Shown here one piece after another: positions 20,156 to 29,974 of a stretch of DNA of 64,000 bases (the first letter of the stretch is position 1; the number at the start of each line of letters is the position of its first letter). The notes under the pieces were generated by a model. That model was not told the origin of the DNA, ran no database searches, and worked only from the letters and a program-made list of their open reading frames with translations. A program made the translations under genes and the position numbers. Origin of the DNA: Enhydrobacter sp. (GTDB lineage: Bacteria; Pseudomonadota; Alphaproteobacteria; Reyranellales; Reyranellaceae). The DNA is taken from NCBI RefSeq assembly GCF_030246845.1, contig NZ_CP126889.1:5017001-5081000 (forward strand). The letters run 5' to 3'.

Positions 20156-21103
20156 CTAGAATCGGAAACTGGCGCCGATGATCGGGCCATAAAGCGTCTC
20201 GTTGATGCCGACGGCGTCGGGCCCGCCGCCCGAGCCGTAGTTCACGCCGAGGGCGCGAAAGCCGATGGTGGCGCCGACCTGGTAGCCGCTGGCCTGCCAG
20301 AGGTAGGTGTAGGCGGCGACCGCCTGCCAGGAGAACCGGCTGCCCGCCAGGCCGAAGCCGCCGATATCGGCGCGGGCCCACAGTTCCTGATGTGGCGTGA
20401 ACTGGTGCCGGACGCGGAAGCCGATCACGGGATCGACCCACTGGATCGCATCGGAGCGCGCGATCGCGAGACCGAAGGAGCGCTCGAGGTGGAGGCGCGA
20501 GAAGTCCACGTTCGAGGTGACATCGAACGAGGCGTCGATCGAGTTGTTCCAGTAGCGGAAGCCGCCCAGCGCATCGACGGCGGTGAACGAGCCTTCGGAA
20601 CCCGGCCAGCGATGGACCTCGTAAACGCCGCCCACCTCGACAATGAACATCTGGTACGTGAGGGCCGCATTGGCCGTGGTGGTGATCTTGAGTCCGCCGA
20701 TCGGGTTGCGATAGCTGGTCTGGCCGGCGCTGAAGCCCAGTCTGGAAAAGACGAAATCGGTGTAGATGCCGGCCTTGCCCTTGTTGGCCTCGAAATAGGC
20801 CATCAAGCCCACGAGCGAATCGCTCTTCTGCACGAGATCGATGAAACTCGCGTTGGTGTCGATCGTCTGGCCGCGCGCCGTGACATTGCCGCTGACACCC
20901 ATCAGCCAGGCATAGGGGGTGACGGTGAACCGCCACGGCTCGGGATCGGCCGGGATCTTCTGCTCGAGCTGCGCGATTTCTGCCGGCCCGGCGAGCCGAT
21001 CGTCGTCGGCCGCCGATGCGGCGTTGCCAGCCAGCGCCCCCAGGAAGGCCAGAATGGCGCCGGAAGATGCAAGCTTTCGAGCCGCGTACACTCGCATTCG
21101 CAC
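20156..21103 (-). CDS. Outer-membrane beta-barrel protein
   Basis: The 315-residue protein has an N-terminal signal peptide (SSGAILAFLGALAGNAASA) and alternating amphipathic strands throughout. It ends in a C-terminal Phe (IGASFRF), the usual Bam-recognised ending of outer-membrane barrels. Proteins of this type are often found beside arylsulfatases, as here, and may admit the substrate. A near-consensus FixK/FNR box lies at 21166-21179, about 65 bases upstream. The exact start (21103 or two codons later) is uncertain. Confidence 0.75.
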   Translation of the reverse strand: MRMRVYAARKLASSGAILAFLGALAGNAASAADDDRLAGPAEIAQLEQKIPADPEPWRFTVTPYAWLMGVSGNVTARGQTIDTNASFIDLVQKSDSLVGLMAYFEANKGKAGIYTDFVFSRLGFSAGQTSYRNPIGGLKITTTANAALTYQMFIVEVGGVYEVHRWPGSEGSFTAVDALGGFRYWNNSIDASFDVTSNVDFSRLHLERSFGLAIARSDAIQWVDPVIGFRVRHQFTPHQELWARADIGGFGLAGSRFSWQAVAAYTYLWQASGYQVGATIGFRALGVNYGSGGGPDAVGINETLYGPIIGASFRF

Positions 21104-21165: not shown

Positions 21166-21179
21166 ATGATCCAGATCAA
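21166..21179 (-). promoter_or_regulatory. Near-consensus FixK/FNR box upstream of the barrel-sulfatase pair
   Basis: On the minus strand the sequence is TTGATCTGGATCAT, 13 of 14 bases of TTGAT-N4-ATCAA. It lies 63-76 bases before the beta-barrel start codon. Its closeness to three better boxes at 22.9-25.4 kb makes it worth listing, but one symmetric position is wrong. Confidence 0.4.
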
Positions 21180-22940: not shown

Positions 22941-22954
22941 TTGATCTGGGTCAA
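22941..22954 (+). promoter_or_regulatory. FixK/FNR box upstream of the first DUF6455 gene
   Basis: TTGATCTGGGTCAA matches the alphaproteobacterial FixK/FnrL consensus TTGAT-N4-(A/G)TCAA exactly. Its centre is about 88 bases upstream of the ATG at 23036, a usual distance for a class II promoter with a leader. It implies induction at low oxygen. Confidence 0.75.
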
Positions 22955-23035
22955 AGCGGACGACAGCCACCGCGATCAACCTTTTTTCTTTAACGGGGGC
23001 TCCGCGCGGCGCCTCGAGGATGGGAGGTAAGGGTC

Positions 23036-23440
23036 ATGACGACGCTCCAGGATCTCCGGCGGACGGTCTCTCGCTTCGTCGAAGGAAGTCGCAAGCGCAG
23101 GCAGCTGCAACGCGAACTCGAGCAACTCGAAGCCATGGGCTCTCTCGATGCCGTTCTGGCGGATGCCGGGCTCGTGCGCTCGCAGATTGGGCCTCTGATG
23201 GCCGGCTGTGCCGGTTCCAGGGAACTGCTGGACCAAATGCTCGCCCGGCTCGGTATCGATGCCGCTCGGCTGCCGGTCGAATGCCTGCGCGATATGACGT
23301 GGACCTGCACGACGTGCCCCGACAAGCGTCGGTGCCGGGAATGGCTGTCCGGCAGCGAGGGAACGGAATTCCACAGCTTCTGCCCGAATGCCGGGCAACT
23401 CGACAATGCCTTGCTGGAGCAGCGCCCGGTCCACGCATAG
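23036..23440 (+). CDS. DUF6455-like cysteine protein, low-oxygen regulated
   Basis: The 134-residue protein has an N-terminal helical, charged half (SRKRRQLQRELEQLEAM) and a C-terminal domain with the cysteines of the DUF6455 family: CLRDMTWTCTTCPDKRRCREWL and FCPNAGQLDNAL. The pattern C..C..C....C plus FCPN suggests a small metal or iron-sulfur site. GGGAGG precedes the ATG by about 6 bases. A perfect FixK/FNR box lies upstream. Function unknown; the second copy at 23500-24099 shares the cysteine pattern. Confidence 0.72.
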   Translation: MTTLQDLRRTVSRFVEGSRKRRQLQRELEQLEAMGSLDAVLADAGLVRSQIGPLMAGCAGSRELLDQMLARLGIDAARLPVECLRDMTWTCTTCPDKRRCREWLSGSEGTEFHSFCPNAGQLDNALLEQRPVHA

Positions 23441-23499
23441 CGCCGGATACGATCGCACTTGTCGCTTTGGAAGAAAGGACCCGGCGTCGCCTCGGCCAA

Positions 23500-24099
23500 C
23501 TAAAGCAGCATGCCGGTGCCGAGCAATGCGCGCGCCTCGCGCCGGCTTGCCTCGACGCGCATTCGTCTGAGGTCATCGGCAGTGGGGTAGCAGGTACTGT
23601 CGCTCGGGCCGTCGGCGGTCCGCGGGCTGCGATGCCGCCACGCAGCCAGCACCGCGCTTGCGCGCCGCGTCAACCGGGCCATCCACGAGCCTGCACGGTC
23701 TGGCAGGAGCGGTGAGGAGCGGAGCGCCGGGTGCGCCAGCAGGTCGAACAGAGCGACGTTGGGGCAGAAGCGGCGATAGGCGTTCAGCCGAGCGGCGCCG
23801 TCGAGCCAGCGGCCGCAGTCGAGCGCACGCGTACAGGTCATGCAGGTCGCTTCGGCCTCGCGCGCGAAGAGACCGACCATTGAGCCATTCCAGTCCTGAA
23901 CGCCGACCCGCCGGACCGCCTTCTCGAGCAGTTCGAGACGCTCGACCATCGGCGCCAGGACGTGCGTGCCCATCCCACGGATGCTGTCGCGCCGAAGGAT
24001 GTGCTCGAGGTTGGCGATGCGCGCGCGCAGTCGACCCGCGAGCGCTTGCCCGGCTTCTGGTCGAACGGCACGGCCGTTGATCGTTTCGATGGAGGCCAT
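23500..24099 (-). CDS. DUF6455-like cysteine protein, longer paralogue
   Basis: The 199-residue protein contains the same signature as its neighbour: EAEATCMTCTRALDCGRWLDG then RRFCPNVALFDLLAH. It has a longer helical N-terminus and a basic C-terminal tail including YPTADDLRRMRVEASRREARAL. Start 24099 is chosen for its AGGGAA site. A FixK/FNR box at 24146-24159 lies in the divergent region between it and the aminotransferase gene. Function unknown; probably a cysteine-ligated metal site. Confidence 0.68.
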   Translation of the reverse strand: MASIETINGRAVRPEAGQALAGRLRARIANLEHILRRDSIRGMGTHVLAPMVERLELLEKAVRRVGVQDWNGSMVGLFAREAEATCMTCTRALDCGRWLDGAARLNAYRRFCPNVALFDLLAHPALRSSPLLPDRAGSWMARLTRRASAVLAAWRHRSPRTADGPSDSTCYPTADDLRRMRVEASRREARALLGTGMLL

Positions 24100-24145
24100 A
24101 AGTCTGTTCCCTGACAACATCCAACCCGTCCTGCCGGACGCAGCA

Positions 24146-24159
24146 TTGACCTGGATCAA
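24146..24159 (+). promoter_or_regulatory. FixK/FNR box between DUF6455 and aminotransferase genes
   Basis: TTGACCTGGATCAA (reverse TTGATCCAGGTCAA) fits TTG(A/T)(C/T)-N4-(A/G)TCAA and lies in the 112-base divergent intergenic region. It is about 47 bases from the leftward start at 24099 and 53 bases from the rightward start at 24212, so it could serve either gene or both. Confidence 0.7.
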
Positions 24160-24211
24160 GACGACGATGGTTCCGCTGGTGCCTCATGCATTTTTTGCGG
24201 AGACGACTGCC

Positions 24212-25388
24212 ATGAACGATACGAGGGGATTGCCATACCGGCTTCGGCTGCCCGGCCCGACGACTGTCCCGGAGCGCGTCCGTCAAGCGATCGCCGGCCT
24301 CGTGATCGATCATCACGGTCCGGAGAGTTCCATGCCTTGGTTGGCGAGATCCAGCGCCGGATCCGTCCGATTTTCGGTACCCGCGGCAAGGTGCTGGCGT
24401 TTGCCGGCTCCGGCACAGCCGCCATGGAAGCCGCACTCGCCAACGTCGCACCGCCGGGGGCGCCCGTGCTGGTGGCGGCGAGCGGCCAGTTCGGCGTGCG
24501 CTTCGGCCAGATCGCCCAAGCGCTCGGCTGTGCAGTCGATATGCTCGAGGTCGAATGGGGCACGGCGCCCGATCCGGCGGTCATCCGGCGACGGCTCGAC
24601 CGCCGCGACTACACCGCCTTGTGCGTCACCCACAACGAGACCTCGACCGGCGTGATGGCCGATCTGCCGGCGATCGGCCAACTGACGAAGGATCGTCCGA
24701 CCTTGTTGCTCGTCGATTCGGTGAGCGGCCTCGCCGGCTTGCCGGTCGAGCAGGATCGCTGGCATCTGGATCTCGTGATCGGCGCGTCGCAGAAGGCGTT
24801 CATGTGCCCGCCCGGCCTCGGCCTGGTCGGCGTCAGCGCCAAGGCCTGGGCGGTCATCGAGCGTGGCCATGGCGGGCGCTTCTTCTGGGATTTCCGCAAG
24901 GCAGGCGCCGCGCTCGACAAGATGGAGAGCGCGTTCACCCCGCCCGTGTCGCTGCTGGCCGGACTCGCCGAAGCTTGCGCATGATCGACGAGGAGGGTTT
25001 CGCCAACGTGCTTGCCCGCCATCGCCGCCTGGCCGCGGGACTGCGCGCGGGCTTGGCGGCGCTCGATCTGGCGCTGTTCGCGCGCGAAGCGCTTTCCGAC
25101 ACCGCGACGGCAATACGCGTGCCCGAGCGGATCGACGGCGGAGCCATCATCCGGAGGCTCTATGAGGGCTACCGGACCGTCGTTGCCGGCTCGCGCACCC
25201 ATCTGGCGGGCAAGCTGATCCGGCTCGGCACGATGGGCTACGTGAGCGAGAGCGACATCCTGACGGACCTCTACTACATCGAGCGCGCACTGGACGACCT
25301 CGGGCACACATCCCGAAAGGGCGCGGGTGTCGCGGCGGCTGCGGCGTTGTTCGCGCGGCCGAGACAGACGACCAGGGCGGCCGCTTGA
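24212..25388 (+). pseudogene. Class V aminotransferase (alanine-glyoxylate/serine-pyruvate type) with two frameshifts
   Basis: The reading frame starts at 24212 (MNDTRGLPYRLRLPGPTTVP). It shifts at about 24326 (two extra bases AG after GGTCCGGAG, where FHALVGEIQRRI should follow) and again at about 24974 (one base missing in GAAGC-TTGCGC, where EALRMIDEEG should follow). Joining the three frames gives about 390 residues, the normal length for the family. The PLP-binding region LLLVDSVSGLAG and the lysine motif ASQKAFMCPPGLG are intact. It should have transaminated glyoxylate or a similar 2-oxoacid. It is either a recent pseudogene or carries assembly errors. A FixK/FNR box precedes it. Confidence 0.75.
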
Positions 25389-25431
25389 TGGGCGCAAGGC
25401 GGGCGGTCGGCCCGTCTCGGACCAATCACGG

Positions 25432-25445
25432 TTGATTCATATCAA
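25432..25445 (+). promoter_or_regulatory. FixK/FNR box upstream of the TehA-like gene
   Basis: TTGATTCATATCAA is a perfect match to TTGAT-N4-ATCAA. It lies 50-63 bases before the ATG at 25495, a spacing that fits activation of that gene by an FNR/FixK-family regulator under low oxygen. Confidence 0.75.
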
Positions 25446-26613: not shown

Positions 26614-26706
26614 TGGCGGAGAGGAAGGGATTCGAACCCTCGATACGGGTTATCCCCGTATAACGGTTTAGCAAACCGCCGCCTTCGACCGCTCGGCCAC
26701 CTCTCC
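26614..26706 (-). tRNA. tRNA-Ser (GCT)
   Basis: The minus strand reads GGAGAGGTGGCCGAGCGGTC at the 5' end and TTCGAATCCCTTCCTCTCCG-CCA at the 3' end, so the acceptor stem GGAGAGG/CCTCTCC, discriminator G and an encoded CCA are all present. The anticodon arm CGGTTTGCTAAACCG has anticodon GCT (complement at 26670-26672). A long variable arm (TTATACGGGGATAACCCGTATC) is typical of tRNA-Ser. The 3' CCA directly abuts the stop of the convergent transporter gene. No integrase is seen beside it. Confidence 0.97.
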
Positions 26707-28018: not shown

Positions 28019-28071
28019 GGGAGAAGGAAGCGGATCGGGTAGGGAGAGGCTTCACAGCCTCCCCCTCCCAC

Positions 28072-28103
28072 ACCACCGTACGTACGGTTCCGTATACGGC
28101 GGT
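28072..28103 (-). ncRNA. Group II intron domain V
   Basis: On the minus strand ACCGCCGTA pairs with TACGGTGGT (9 bp, one G-U pair). A 2-base CG bulge and a second stem TACGG/CCGTA follow. This is the catalytic-hairpin architecture of domain V. It begins four bases after the maturase stop codon, as expected for an ORF housed in domain IV. Confidence 0.85.
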
Positions 28104-28106
28104 TCG

Positions 28107-29507
28107 TCAAGCGCGGGTGAGGCGATGATGCAGTTGCTGGAGCGACGGCAGGCCGAGGGTGGCGAAGAAGGCGGCACGATAGGCGTTGTTCATGTGGCTG
28201 GCCCCGGCATTCCACCAGGGGCCGCGTCCGTTGGTGGCGGACTGCCACGCCCGAGCCTGATCGATGCCGCGCTGCATCAGTCGCTTGGCGCGTGTACGCG
28301 GACGCTTCCACTGCCGCCACAGCAGGCCGCGCAGCTTGCGCCGCAGCCAGCCATCGAGGTCCTCGAAGGCCCCCTTTGCCTGCGCCAGCCGGAAGTATTG
28401 CATCCAGCCACGCAGGATTGGAGCGAGGTCCTCGACGGTCCGGGCCAGGGTTCGTCCGCGTCCTTGGCGTAGCGTCATCCTGAGCTTGTTCCGCAGCCGG
28501 CCCACACTCTTGGCCGCCACCCGAAGGCGCGGCTGCTTGTGGGACGTCACGGTGTATCCCAGGAACGTTCGTACCCAAGGACGGTCAACCGCGCTCTTGG
28601 CGCTGTTGACCTTCAGCCGCAGTCGTTCGGCAAGGAACCGTGTGATCGACGCCATCACCCGCTCGCCGGCTGCCTTCGTCCGCACGTAGATGTTGCAGTC
28701 GTCGGCGTAGCGGCAGAAGGCATGGCCCCGTCGCTCGAGTTCCTTGTCGAGATCGTCGAGCAGGATGTTCGACAGCAACGGGGATAAAGGCCCACCTTGC
28801 GGCGTGCCTTCGGTCCGTACCGTCGTCAACCCGCCCGTCATCAACCCAGCCTGCAAGTAGCGGCGGATCAGCCGCAATACCCGCTTGTCCTCGACCCGGC
28901 GTGCCACCCGTGCCATCAGCACGTCGTGGTTCACCCGGTCGAAGAACTTCTCCAGGTCGAGGTCGACCACAAAGCGTCGGCCATCGGCCATGTGCGCCCG
29001 CGCGGCAAGCACCGCGTCGTGCGCGCTGCGCCCCGGACGGAAGCCGTACGAGGACGCTGAGAAGCCCGGATCGAACAGCGGCATCAGCACCTGATGCATC
29101 GCCTGCTGGATCAGCCGATCCAGGACCGTCGGGATGCCCAGTTGGCGCATCCCGCCGCCGGGCTTGGGGAGTTCGACCCCACGCACCGGCTTGGGCCTGT
29201 ATCGATCGTCCAACAGTTCCTCTCTGACGCGCGGCCAGTGCTCCTTCAGGTGCGGCGCCAACTGCTCCACAGTCATCCGATCGATGCCTGCGGCGCCCTT
29301 GTTCGTCATCACCCGATGGTAGGCCGCCATCATGTTCTCTCGGCTGACGATCTTCTCCATCAGCCGCATCTCCTCCTCCGGATGGGAAGGTCGCGGTCTT
29401 GCCGTGGTGGTTGACGCACCCGTCCCCTGCTCTCGCGGCTGCCGGCCGCTACCCTCGGGGCGGGCATGGCGCATCTCAGCGCTATCGCCTGCGTCTGTTG
29501 TCACCAT
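28107..29507 (-). CDS. ltrA: Group II intron reverse transcriptase/maturase
   Basis: The 466-residue protein has the reverse transcriptase blocks GKGAAGIDRMTV-type start (NKGAAGIDRM), SYGFRPGRSAHDAV, VDLDLEKFFDRVNHD, GTPQGGPLSPLLSN and the catalytic RYADD (Asp269-Asp270). The C-terminal maturase (GIIM) region follows (FLGYT ... LRGWMQYFRLAQ). There is no obvious HNH endonuclease domain, consistent with class C introns. The frame looks intact. It splices and mobilises the surrounding intron. The first ~46 residues are low-complexity, and an internal Met may be the true start. Confidence 0.93.
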   Translation of the reverse strand: MVTTDAGDSAEMRHARPEGSGRQPREQGTGASTTTARPRPSHPEEEMRLMEKIVSRENMMAAYHRVMTNKGAAGIDRMTVEQLAPHLKEHWPRVREELLDDRYRPKPVRGVELPKPGGGMRQLGIPTVLDRLIQQAMHQVLMPLFDPGFSASSYGFRPGRSAHDAVLAARAHMADGRRFVVDLDLEKFFDRVNHDVLMARVARRVEDKRVLRLIRRYLQAGLMTGGLTTVRTEGTPQGGPLSPLLSNILLDDLDKELERRGHAFCRYADDCNIYVRTKAAGERVMASITRFLAERLRLKVNSAKSAVDRPWVRTFLGYTVTSHKQPRLRVAAKSVGRLRNKLRMTLRQGRGRTLARTVEDLAPILRGWMQYFRLAQAKGAFEDLDGWLRRKLRGLLWRQWKRPRTRAKRLMQRGIDQARAWQSATNGRGPWWNAGASHMNNAYRAAFFATLGLPSLQQLHHRLTRA

Positions 29508-29974
29508 CGAAAGACCGACCTCCCTCCGGCACTTGATGTTCGGCCCTTTGTCGACCCGGTTCGCCGACTACTACGGCCTCTGCTGACTCCTGCCGCCCCA
29601 TCCCGCCGCCTCGCAGCGCCGGTAGCACACCTGTTGCCAGGGGCAAGACGGCAGATCTCCCAGGGTAATGCGCGTGACCTTCGTGCCATCTACCTGGCGC
29701 ATCTACGCCCGCCCCTTCCGGGTGATATTCGGGCTTCGGGCTTCTTGGCTCCCTCGCCCAGAGGCGGACGCCTCATATGCGCTTCCTGTTCGTCAGGCCG
29801 GCACTTTGCCTGCAGCTTCCTTCAGACCCCATCTCACGATGACGCCCTTGCCGTTCGGCTAACGGTTCCCATCACCAGGGCCCGTGAAGGACTTCCACCT
29901 CCAAGTCTTCGACCGGATACCAACTCGGTCAAATCGTGCCCTCGCACCTACGCGCCATGCCTGGCGCACCAAAC

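Follow-up and report, generated by a model that had tools for sequence, protein, structure and literature searches.

Do closely spaced regulatory sites mark genes that work together? This question is raised by a short part of the genome of Enhydrobacter sp. (Reyranellaceae; assembly GCF_030246845.1, contig NZ_CP126889.1), here genome G000, which consists of one contig of 5,439,728 bases and is rated 100% complete. Within the stretch analyzed (64,000 nucleotides, positions 5,017,001-5,081,000, hereafter the window), three sites of the kind bound by the low-oxygen regulators FNR and FixK lie next to two genes for cysteine proteins of the family DUF6455, a class V aminotransferase gene and a gene for a TehA-like anion channel. 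The original prediction, made from the letters of the sequence, took all four genes for one functional unit of microaerobic metabolism. Our analysis points elsewhere: rather probably, DUF6455 is a small, presumably iron-sulfur (Fe-S), protein of the FNR/FixK low-oxygen response that is encoded here in a variable island. The locus would be a lineage-specific island at a tRNA-Ser gene of this Reyranella genome, with its genes brought under the FNR/FixK low-oxygen regulators of the cell and with DUF6455 as the conserved core. Falling oxygen would lead an activator of the FNR/FixK type to bind TTGAY-N4-RTCAA, in most cases some 65-100 bp ahead of the start codon, and to switch DUF6455 on.

FNR/FixK boxes in the window and the genome

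Boxes were searched with the palindromic pattern TTGAYN4RTCAA, while the reversed motif served as control. All three sites claimed by the original prediction were confirmed at their positions (Table 1) and fit TTGAY-N4-RTCAA exactly, TTGATTCATATCAA being the sole perfect TTGATN4ATCAA within the window. If one mismatch is allowed, the window contains five pattern matches against 0.52 expected from shuffled sequences, and none of 100 shuffles reached five. Genome-wide (5.44 Mb), TTGAYN4RTCAA occurs 40 times and its reversed control twice, while the perfect TTGATN4ATCAA was found 14 times against none for the control. Three such sites in 2.5 kb are not a matter of chance, because the motif, with 40 vs 2 sites genome-wide, is in use in this organism. 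The boxes lie 81 bp from the start of DUF6455 copy 1, 46 bp from that of copy 2, 52 bp from the aminotransferase and 49 bp from the SLAC1/TehA gene. A fourth, weaker FNR-like site, ATGATCCAGATCAA (21166-21179), was observed outside the span of the original prediction, 69 bp 5' of a gene on the minus strand (20156-21097), whose product looks exported and has no Pfam match.

Concentrations of these sites were seen at 33-36 kb and 1.457-1.481 Mb of the genome, the strongest at 2.788-2.832 Mb. Based on Pfam, the last region encodes HemN, a PAS histidine kinase and a response regulator of the FixLJ type, a FixK-like CRP/FNR protein, a cation P-type ATPase, PPDK, an FtsH-like M41 peptidase and a HlyD family protein, while universal stress proteins (USP), CBS proteins and Hsp20 were assigned by eye. 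It is a recognizable FixLJK-type hypoxia island. About 15 FNR/FixK boxes were counted in it (G000:C1 2787853-2832500, L047-L049), and its gene content resembles the mycobacterial DosR set. Matching regulators for an FNR/FixK regulon are thus present in the genome: the FixK-like gene (L021) inside this island and two further FNR-like genes with N-terminal cysteine clusters at 1.4755 and 1.477 Mb. An E-x2-SR recognition helix is common to the three regulators.

Consequently, there is strong reason to regard the box as a putative target of an FNR/FixK-type protein, and by the known behavior of such regulons DUF6455 would be activated at low oxygen. The palindrome TTGAY-N4-RTCAA and similar distances to the start are described for the FnrL/FixK regulons of Rhodobacter, Bradyrhizobium and Dinoroseobacter (PMC2908626, PMC4634722, PMC5398030). 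Regulon members shared with the hypoxia island of G000 are a FixLJ-like pair, a FixK-like gene, HemN, USP and HlyD-ABC. In the passages of these reports that were examined, DUF6455 is not named as a member, while the unnamed hypothetical targets in their tables may include it.

DUF6455 genes and their boxes in relatives

The named relatives are metagenome-assembled genomes of Reyranella. Seven DUF6455 loci came from the named genome collection, some from the same genomes as the Pfam search matches. Within this genus DUF6455 is rare, as only G000, G029 and G031 exceed the Pfam cut-off. The box before copy 1 is kept as TTGATCTGGGTCAA or TTGATCTGGATCAA (perfect) at L241, L242, L244 and L246 and with one mismatch at L245, while L243 ends at a contig edge. 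The flanks around this conserved box are largely unalignable among the relatives, which leaves a same-genus footprint. Furthermore, the ratio of non-synonymous to synonymous substitution rates (dN/dS) of DUF6455 copy 1 is about 0.2-0.4, indicating purifying selection on DUF6455.

Beyond the genus, DUF6455 was found above the cut-off in 15 of 385 genomes of a class sample and in 27 of 398 genomes of a phylum sample, one of them outside the class. It is present in 175 of 296 sampled genera of family f24, often in 2-6 copies; judged by synteny and named plasmid relatives, this family is Rhodobacteraceae/Roseobacteraceae-like. A perfect box no more than 200 bp from the start was found for 25 of 44 sampled DUF6455 genes of Alphaproteobacteria and a box with at most one mismatch for 33, compared to 0.27 and 2.3% of random windows from the same loci. 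For the operons of family f24 the values are 25/29 and 28/29, and the control windows gave 0/731 perfect boxes and 1.9% within one mismatch. When other genes of the same loci were taken as a more stringent control, perfect boxes were found upstream of 14 of 597, most of these boxes lying in fix islands, as opposed to 31 of 55 DUF6455 genes, with non-leading genes of tandems included. The DUF6455 pair of G814 has no perfect box. Thus the scan of related genomes which the original prediction had proposed came out clearly in favor of boxes before DUF6455 genes, and FNR/FixK-type control of these genes is supported by conserved boxes in the genus, the class and one family. The regulatory part of the original prediction appears right and more general than it could know.

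In family f24, DUF6455 paralogues that diverge from one another stand in tandem arrays of 2-4 behind a single leading box (L156-L176), with up to six copies per genome, which suggests specialization of paralogues or heteromers. A functional partner was sought among the recurrent f24 neighbors and rejected, as these are mostly housekeeping genes in fixed synteny (by eye RimO, a nitroreductase and VOC proteins) and thus uninformative.

The same boxes might instead serve a nitric oxide (NO) regulator of the DNR/NnrR type, with a role of DUF6455 in NO stress or denitrification. From the boxes alone FNR, FixK and DNR cannot be told apart, because these regulators recognize similar sites (PMC2908626). 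In addition, a gene that by eye resembles NnrS lies near the L244 locus, an annotated NnrS is found near a DUF6455 gene of Mesorhizobium, and the WhiB-like cysteine spacing discussed below would suit NO sensing. However, in another family DUF6455 adjoins genes reading as ccoO-ccoP-fixG-fixH-fixI (cbb3 oxidase and fixGHI) plus CBS, or as FixL-FixJ, USP and a cation ATPase, and the sites of G000 cluster around FixLJ/FixK, HemN and USP genes. We therefore regard NO control as unlikely, albeit worth keeping in mind.

Still less can be said for boxes that arose by coincidence or are remnants in decay, left in an island on its way out of the genome. In favor of this idea, the aminotransferase gene is disrupted and its surroundings vary, as shown below. 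On the other hand, the genome-wide excess of sites, the same-genus footprint, the class-wide enrichment and the purifying selection on DUF6455 all speak against this idea, which we find hardly credible.

The four-cysteine protein and its metal

Across 63 sequences, DUF6455 shows the signature C-x2-C-x5-C-x2-[W]-x(~13)-[FY]-C-x-N. The spacing C-x2-C-x5-C is found in 62 and the tryptophan at +3 in 47 of the 63, while the four cysteines and the asparagine are invariant in the alignment. In copy 1 of the window, a DUF1127-like N-terminus is followed by the four-cysteine domain (C91, C94, C100, W103, C116, N118), and all four cysteines are kept in copy 2. AlphaFold models are all-helical and confident, with a predicted local distance difference test score (pLDDT) of 87.1 for the full length and 91.2 for the domain alone. 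An apparent N-terminal membrane helix was noticed at L078 and L080, thus some members may be membrane-anchored. The original prediction had suggested that the cysteine proteins are metal-site partners: metal binding is indeed plausible because the four cysteines are invariant, and we infer a four-cysteine metal site from this invariance, whereas a partner role in a four-gene unit could not be upheld.

DUF6455 resembles the WhiB proteins of Actinobacteria, which are small and all-helical with four cysteines as well. The [4Fe-4S] cluster of WhiB1 is bound by Cys9, Cys37, Cys40 and Cys46, and NO probably attacks through an opening lined by Trp49 (PMC5741622); the motif C-x2-C-x5-C-x2-W of DUF6455 is identical to C37/C40/C46/W49. 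However, the fourth cysteine of DUF6455 is C-terminal ([FY]C-x-N) rather than N-terminal, and no G[VI]WGG turn was seen. Membership in the WhiB-like (Wbl) family could not be established, since no profile match is significant and the resemblance stays at the level of the motif. WhiB therefore serves here as an analogy to work with, and DUF6455 is not assigned to its family.

The four cysteines would hold a metal center, for which a [4Fe-4S] cluster labile to oxygen or NO is the most likely candidate; such a cluster would be stable only under those conditions in which the DUF6455 gene is expressed, and the protein might act as a redox or regulatory partner. For the form fused to DUF1127, as seemingly in the window, RNA is one candidate for this partner and a protein, for example a sensor kinase, is another. 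An N-terminal DUF1127 segment is present in a subset of DUF6455 proteins, which they share with the DUF1127 proteins CcaF1, YjiS and that of Agrobacterium. The DUF1127 match (PF06568) reaches 24.4 bits in the homologue L236 (cut-off 23.3) and is very weak in window copy 1 (E 0.59). CcaF1 is reported to bind RNA (PMC10253847) and a small DUF1127 protein to act through the sensor kinase PhoR (PMC12501420). DUF1127 proteins are often <50 aa (PMC12501420), in contrast to the DUF6455 fusions, which add the four-cysteine domain.

Several results weigh against our reading of DUF6455 as a probable Fe-S protein of the low-oxygen response. The box is absent at the DUF6455 locus of L240, the closest relative by DUF6455 sequence (81%), and the divergent members L079, L081 and L082 lack it, too. 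We found no published expression data that tie a DUF6455 gene to FNR/FixK control; our literature search gave essentially nothing on the family, whose name was met in a table of a single paper, with one gene raised by ethylene in Azospirillum. On the structural side, fold searches against the PDB gave no significant match in Foldseek (best E 0.96 and 4.2), and the best VIA-align scores, Z 3.5 (55 residues, root-mean-square deviation (rmsd) 4.6) and 4.2 (60 residues, rmsd 2.9), reveal no convincing PDB relative. Wbl chains are not among the matches listed by either program, an absence which does not exclude a Wbl fold. The best natural profile match, a 24-residue stretch of WhiB1 (PDB), is not significant (E 0.32), hhalign against ten phage WhiB proteins aligned the same segment with a probability of 10.6 and 26.4%, and WhiB is not among the Pfam matches of 44 DUF6455 members. 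Finally, the four cysteines could hold zinc instead.

This last point leads to an alternative which we consider possible, if only tentatively: DUF6455 might be a zinc-binding small adaptor or regulator with structural cysteines, which would adjust low-oxygen metabolism by binding RNA or a protein partner through its helical core or its DUF1127-like segment. Four cysteines suit zinc equally well, and the fusion of a subset to DUF1127 would fit the modes of action reported for small DUF1127 proteins. However, a C-x2-C-x5-C motif in helical context with tryptophan at +3 has the spacing of WhiB (PMC5741622). Moreover, zinc sites more often have two CxxC knuckles, and the near-universal low-oxygen control suggested by the boxes would fit an oxygen-labile center. 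The spacing C-x2-C-x5-C is also that of the iron-sulfur loop of EndoIII. From spacing, helical context and low-oxygen expression, our judgment leans modestly toward [4Fe-4S] rather than zinc.

One might extend the Fe-S reading further and speculate that DUF6455 is the alphaproteobacterial counterpart of WhiB: a small helical [4Fe-4S] sensor of oxygen or NO under FNR/FixK, frequently in the form of tandem paralogues and DUF1127 fusions, that relays a second, post-FNR gas signal to transcription or to RNA control. We deem this rather improbable.

Neighboring genes and the variable island

What, then, of the other genes beside the boxes (Table 1)? The gene assignments of the original prediction stood in so far as Pfam recognized DUF6455, Aminotran_5 and SLAC1, but the aminotransferase gene is not intact. 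Its domain is recognizable, while the reading frame is broken twice and runs through frame 2 (24212-24325), frame 1 (about 24328-24978) and frame 3 (about 24981-25385). If compared to the intact relative L071 with 391 codons, the frameshifts are +2 near 24326 (two extra bases) and -1 near 24979 (one base missing). All pieces show a dN/dS of 0.14-0.32, indicating purifying selection. Since every piece is still under such selection, either the break is recent or it reflects an error of sequencing. A PDB search with the 391-aa relative found serine-glyoxylate and alanine-glyoxylate enzymes (best E 1.4e-52), class V aminotransferases from which the window copy differs by its two frameshifts.

Table 1. 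Features of the DUF6455 locus in window coordinates.
Feature	Position	Strand	Basis and remarks
FNR/FixK box TTGATCTGGGTCAA	22941..22954	no strand	pattern match; 5' of DUF6455 copy 1
DUF6455 copy 1, 134 aa	23036..23440	+	Pfam PF20056, 31.5 bits (cut-off 23.7)
DUF6455 copy 2, 199 aa, C-terminal extension	23500..24099	-	PF20056, 24.6 bits; borderline 23.6 with annotated start (cut-off 23.7)
FNR/FixK box TTGACCTGGATCAA	24146..24159	no strand	pattern match; between divergent DUF6455 copy 2 and aminotransferase
Class V aminotransferase, disrupted	24212..25388	+	Pfam Aminotran_5 on middle piece
FNR/FixK box TTGATTCATATCAA	25432..25445	no strand	pattern match; 5' of SLAC1/TehA-like gene
SLAC1/TehA-family anion channel homologue, 372 aa	25495..26613	+	Pfam SLAC1, 4e-49
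tRNA-Ser(GCT)	26614..26706	-	ARAGORN; edge of variable region, directly beyond TehA-like gene

The TehA-like gene is intact and its SLAC1 domain (PF03595) is full-length (profile 2-330 of 331). Relatives at 63% identity were found in 2 of 24 same-genus genomes searched (G023, G005), and no box is conserved upstream of the TehA homologues L119, L120 and L123. The homologues in G023 and G005 and the paralogue in G000 itself have no box. Neither the TehA-like gene nor DUF6455 copy 2 is present in any of the DUF6455 loci read from Reyranella relatives. Co-occurrence of DUF6455 with the TehA-like gene, the second check proposed originally, was therefore not observed. An intact aminotransferase convergent with DUF6455 was encountered in only two relatives, L242 (on the same contig as L071) and L244, each time preceded at about 40-54 bp by a perfect box of its own.

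These data bear on the four-gene unit of the original prediction, in which a 2-oxoacid would be produced or consumed by the aminotransferase and an anion exported by TehA, with the DUF6455 proteins as partners at a metal site. In its favor, the four genes are neighbors, each next to a box, and in the two relatives just named DUF6455 is accompanied by the aminotransferase, which has a box of its own there. In contrast, the aminotransferase is frameshifted twice in the window, the relatives' loci contain neither TehA nor copy 2, the TehA homologues lack boxes, DUF6455 is mostly found without either gene, and the region at the tRNA-Ser gene is variable. We thus consider the unit very unlikely and do not maintain the proposed handling of a 2-oxoacid or its anion by aminotransferase and channel, for which only the family names speak. 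Within the island that we favor instead, the aminotransferase would be an occasional companion of DUF6455, broken here, and the TehA-like gene a local addition to the regulon.

That the block is part of a variable island follows from the junction of the tRNA-Ser gene with the M20 peptidase gene beyond it, because this junction is conserved in 8 other Reyranella genomes while its opposite side differs between genomes. The tRNA-Ser(GCT) site is likely an integration hotspot in the genus. The variable region spans about 11.9-26.7 kb of the window and ends at this tRNA gene; in L274, a gene reading as a tyrosine integrase adjoins tRNA-Ser. Beside the M20 peptidase gene, a group II intron (28034-29843) with a reverse transcriptase/maturase gene (28107-29369, minus strand) was observed.

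Other companions of DUF6455 were seen elsewhere. In L154 (Mesorhizobium plasmid pB2-1-8), a DUF6455 gene lies immediately in front of genes annotated as SCP2 and as two U32 peptidases, divergent from UbiD/UbiX; the SCP2/U32 genes are of the UbiT/U/V type for oxygen-independent ubiquinone synthesis. In two ring-cleavage contexts, DUF6455 lies near a 2,5-dihydroxypyridine dioxygenase gene (L153, Azospirillum ramasamyi) or next to hppD/hmgA (L152, Aminobacter). Such plasmid contexts hint at iron- or oxygen-sensitive chemistry, while they differ from case to case and are too inconsistent to choose between.

Taken together, what is new here is DUF6455 as a candidate member of an already known FNR/FixK regulon, whereas the protein family itself is unexplored. 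A family of unknown function would thereby become a testable component of microoxic life, as its genes lie behind the putative low-oxygen switch far more often than their neighbors do. It poses a concrete biochemical question, namely whether the C-x2-C-x5-C...C site holds an Fe-S cluster. In this sense, many bacteria of soils and the sea may cope with low oxygen partly through DUF6455, a component that has so far escaped notice.

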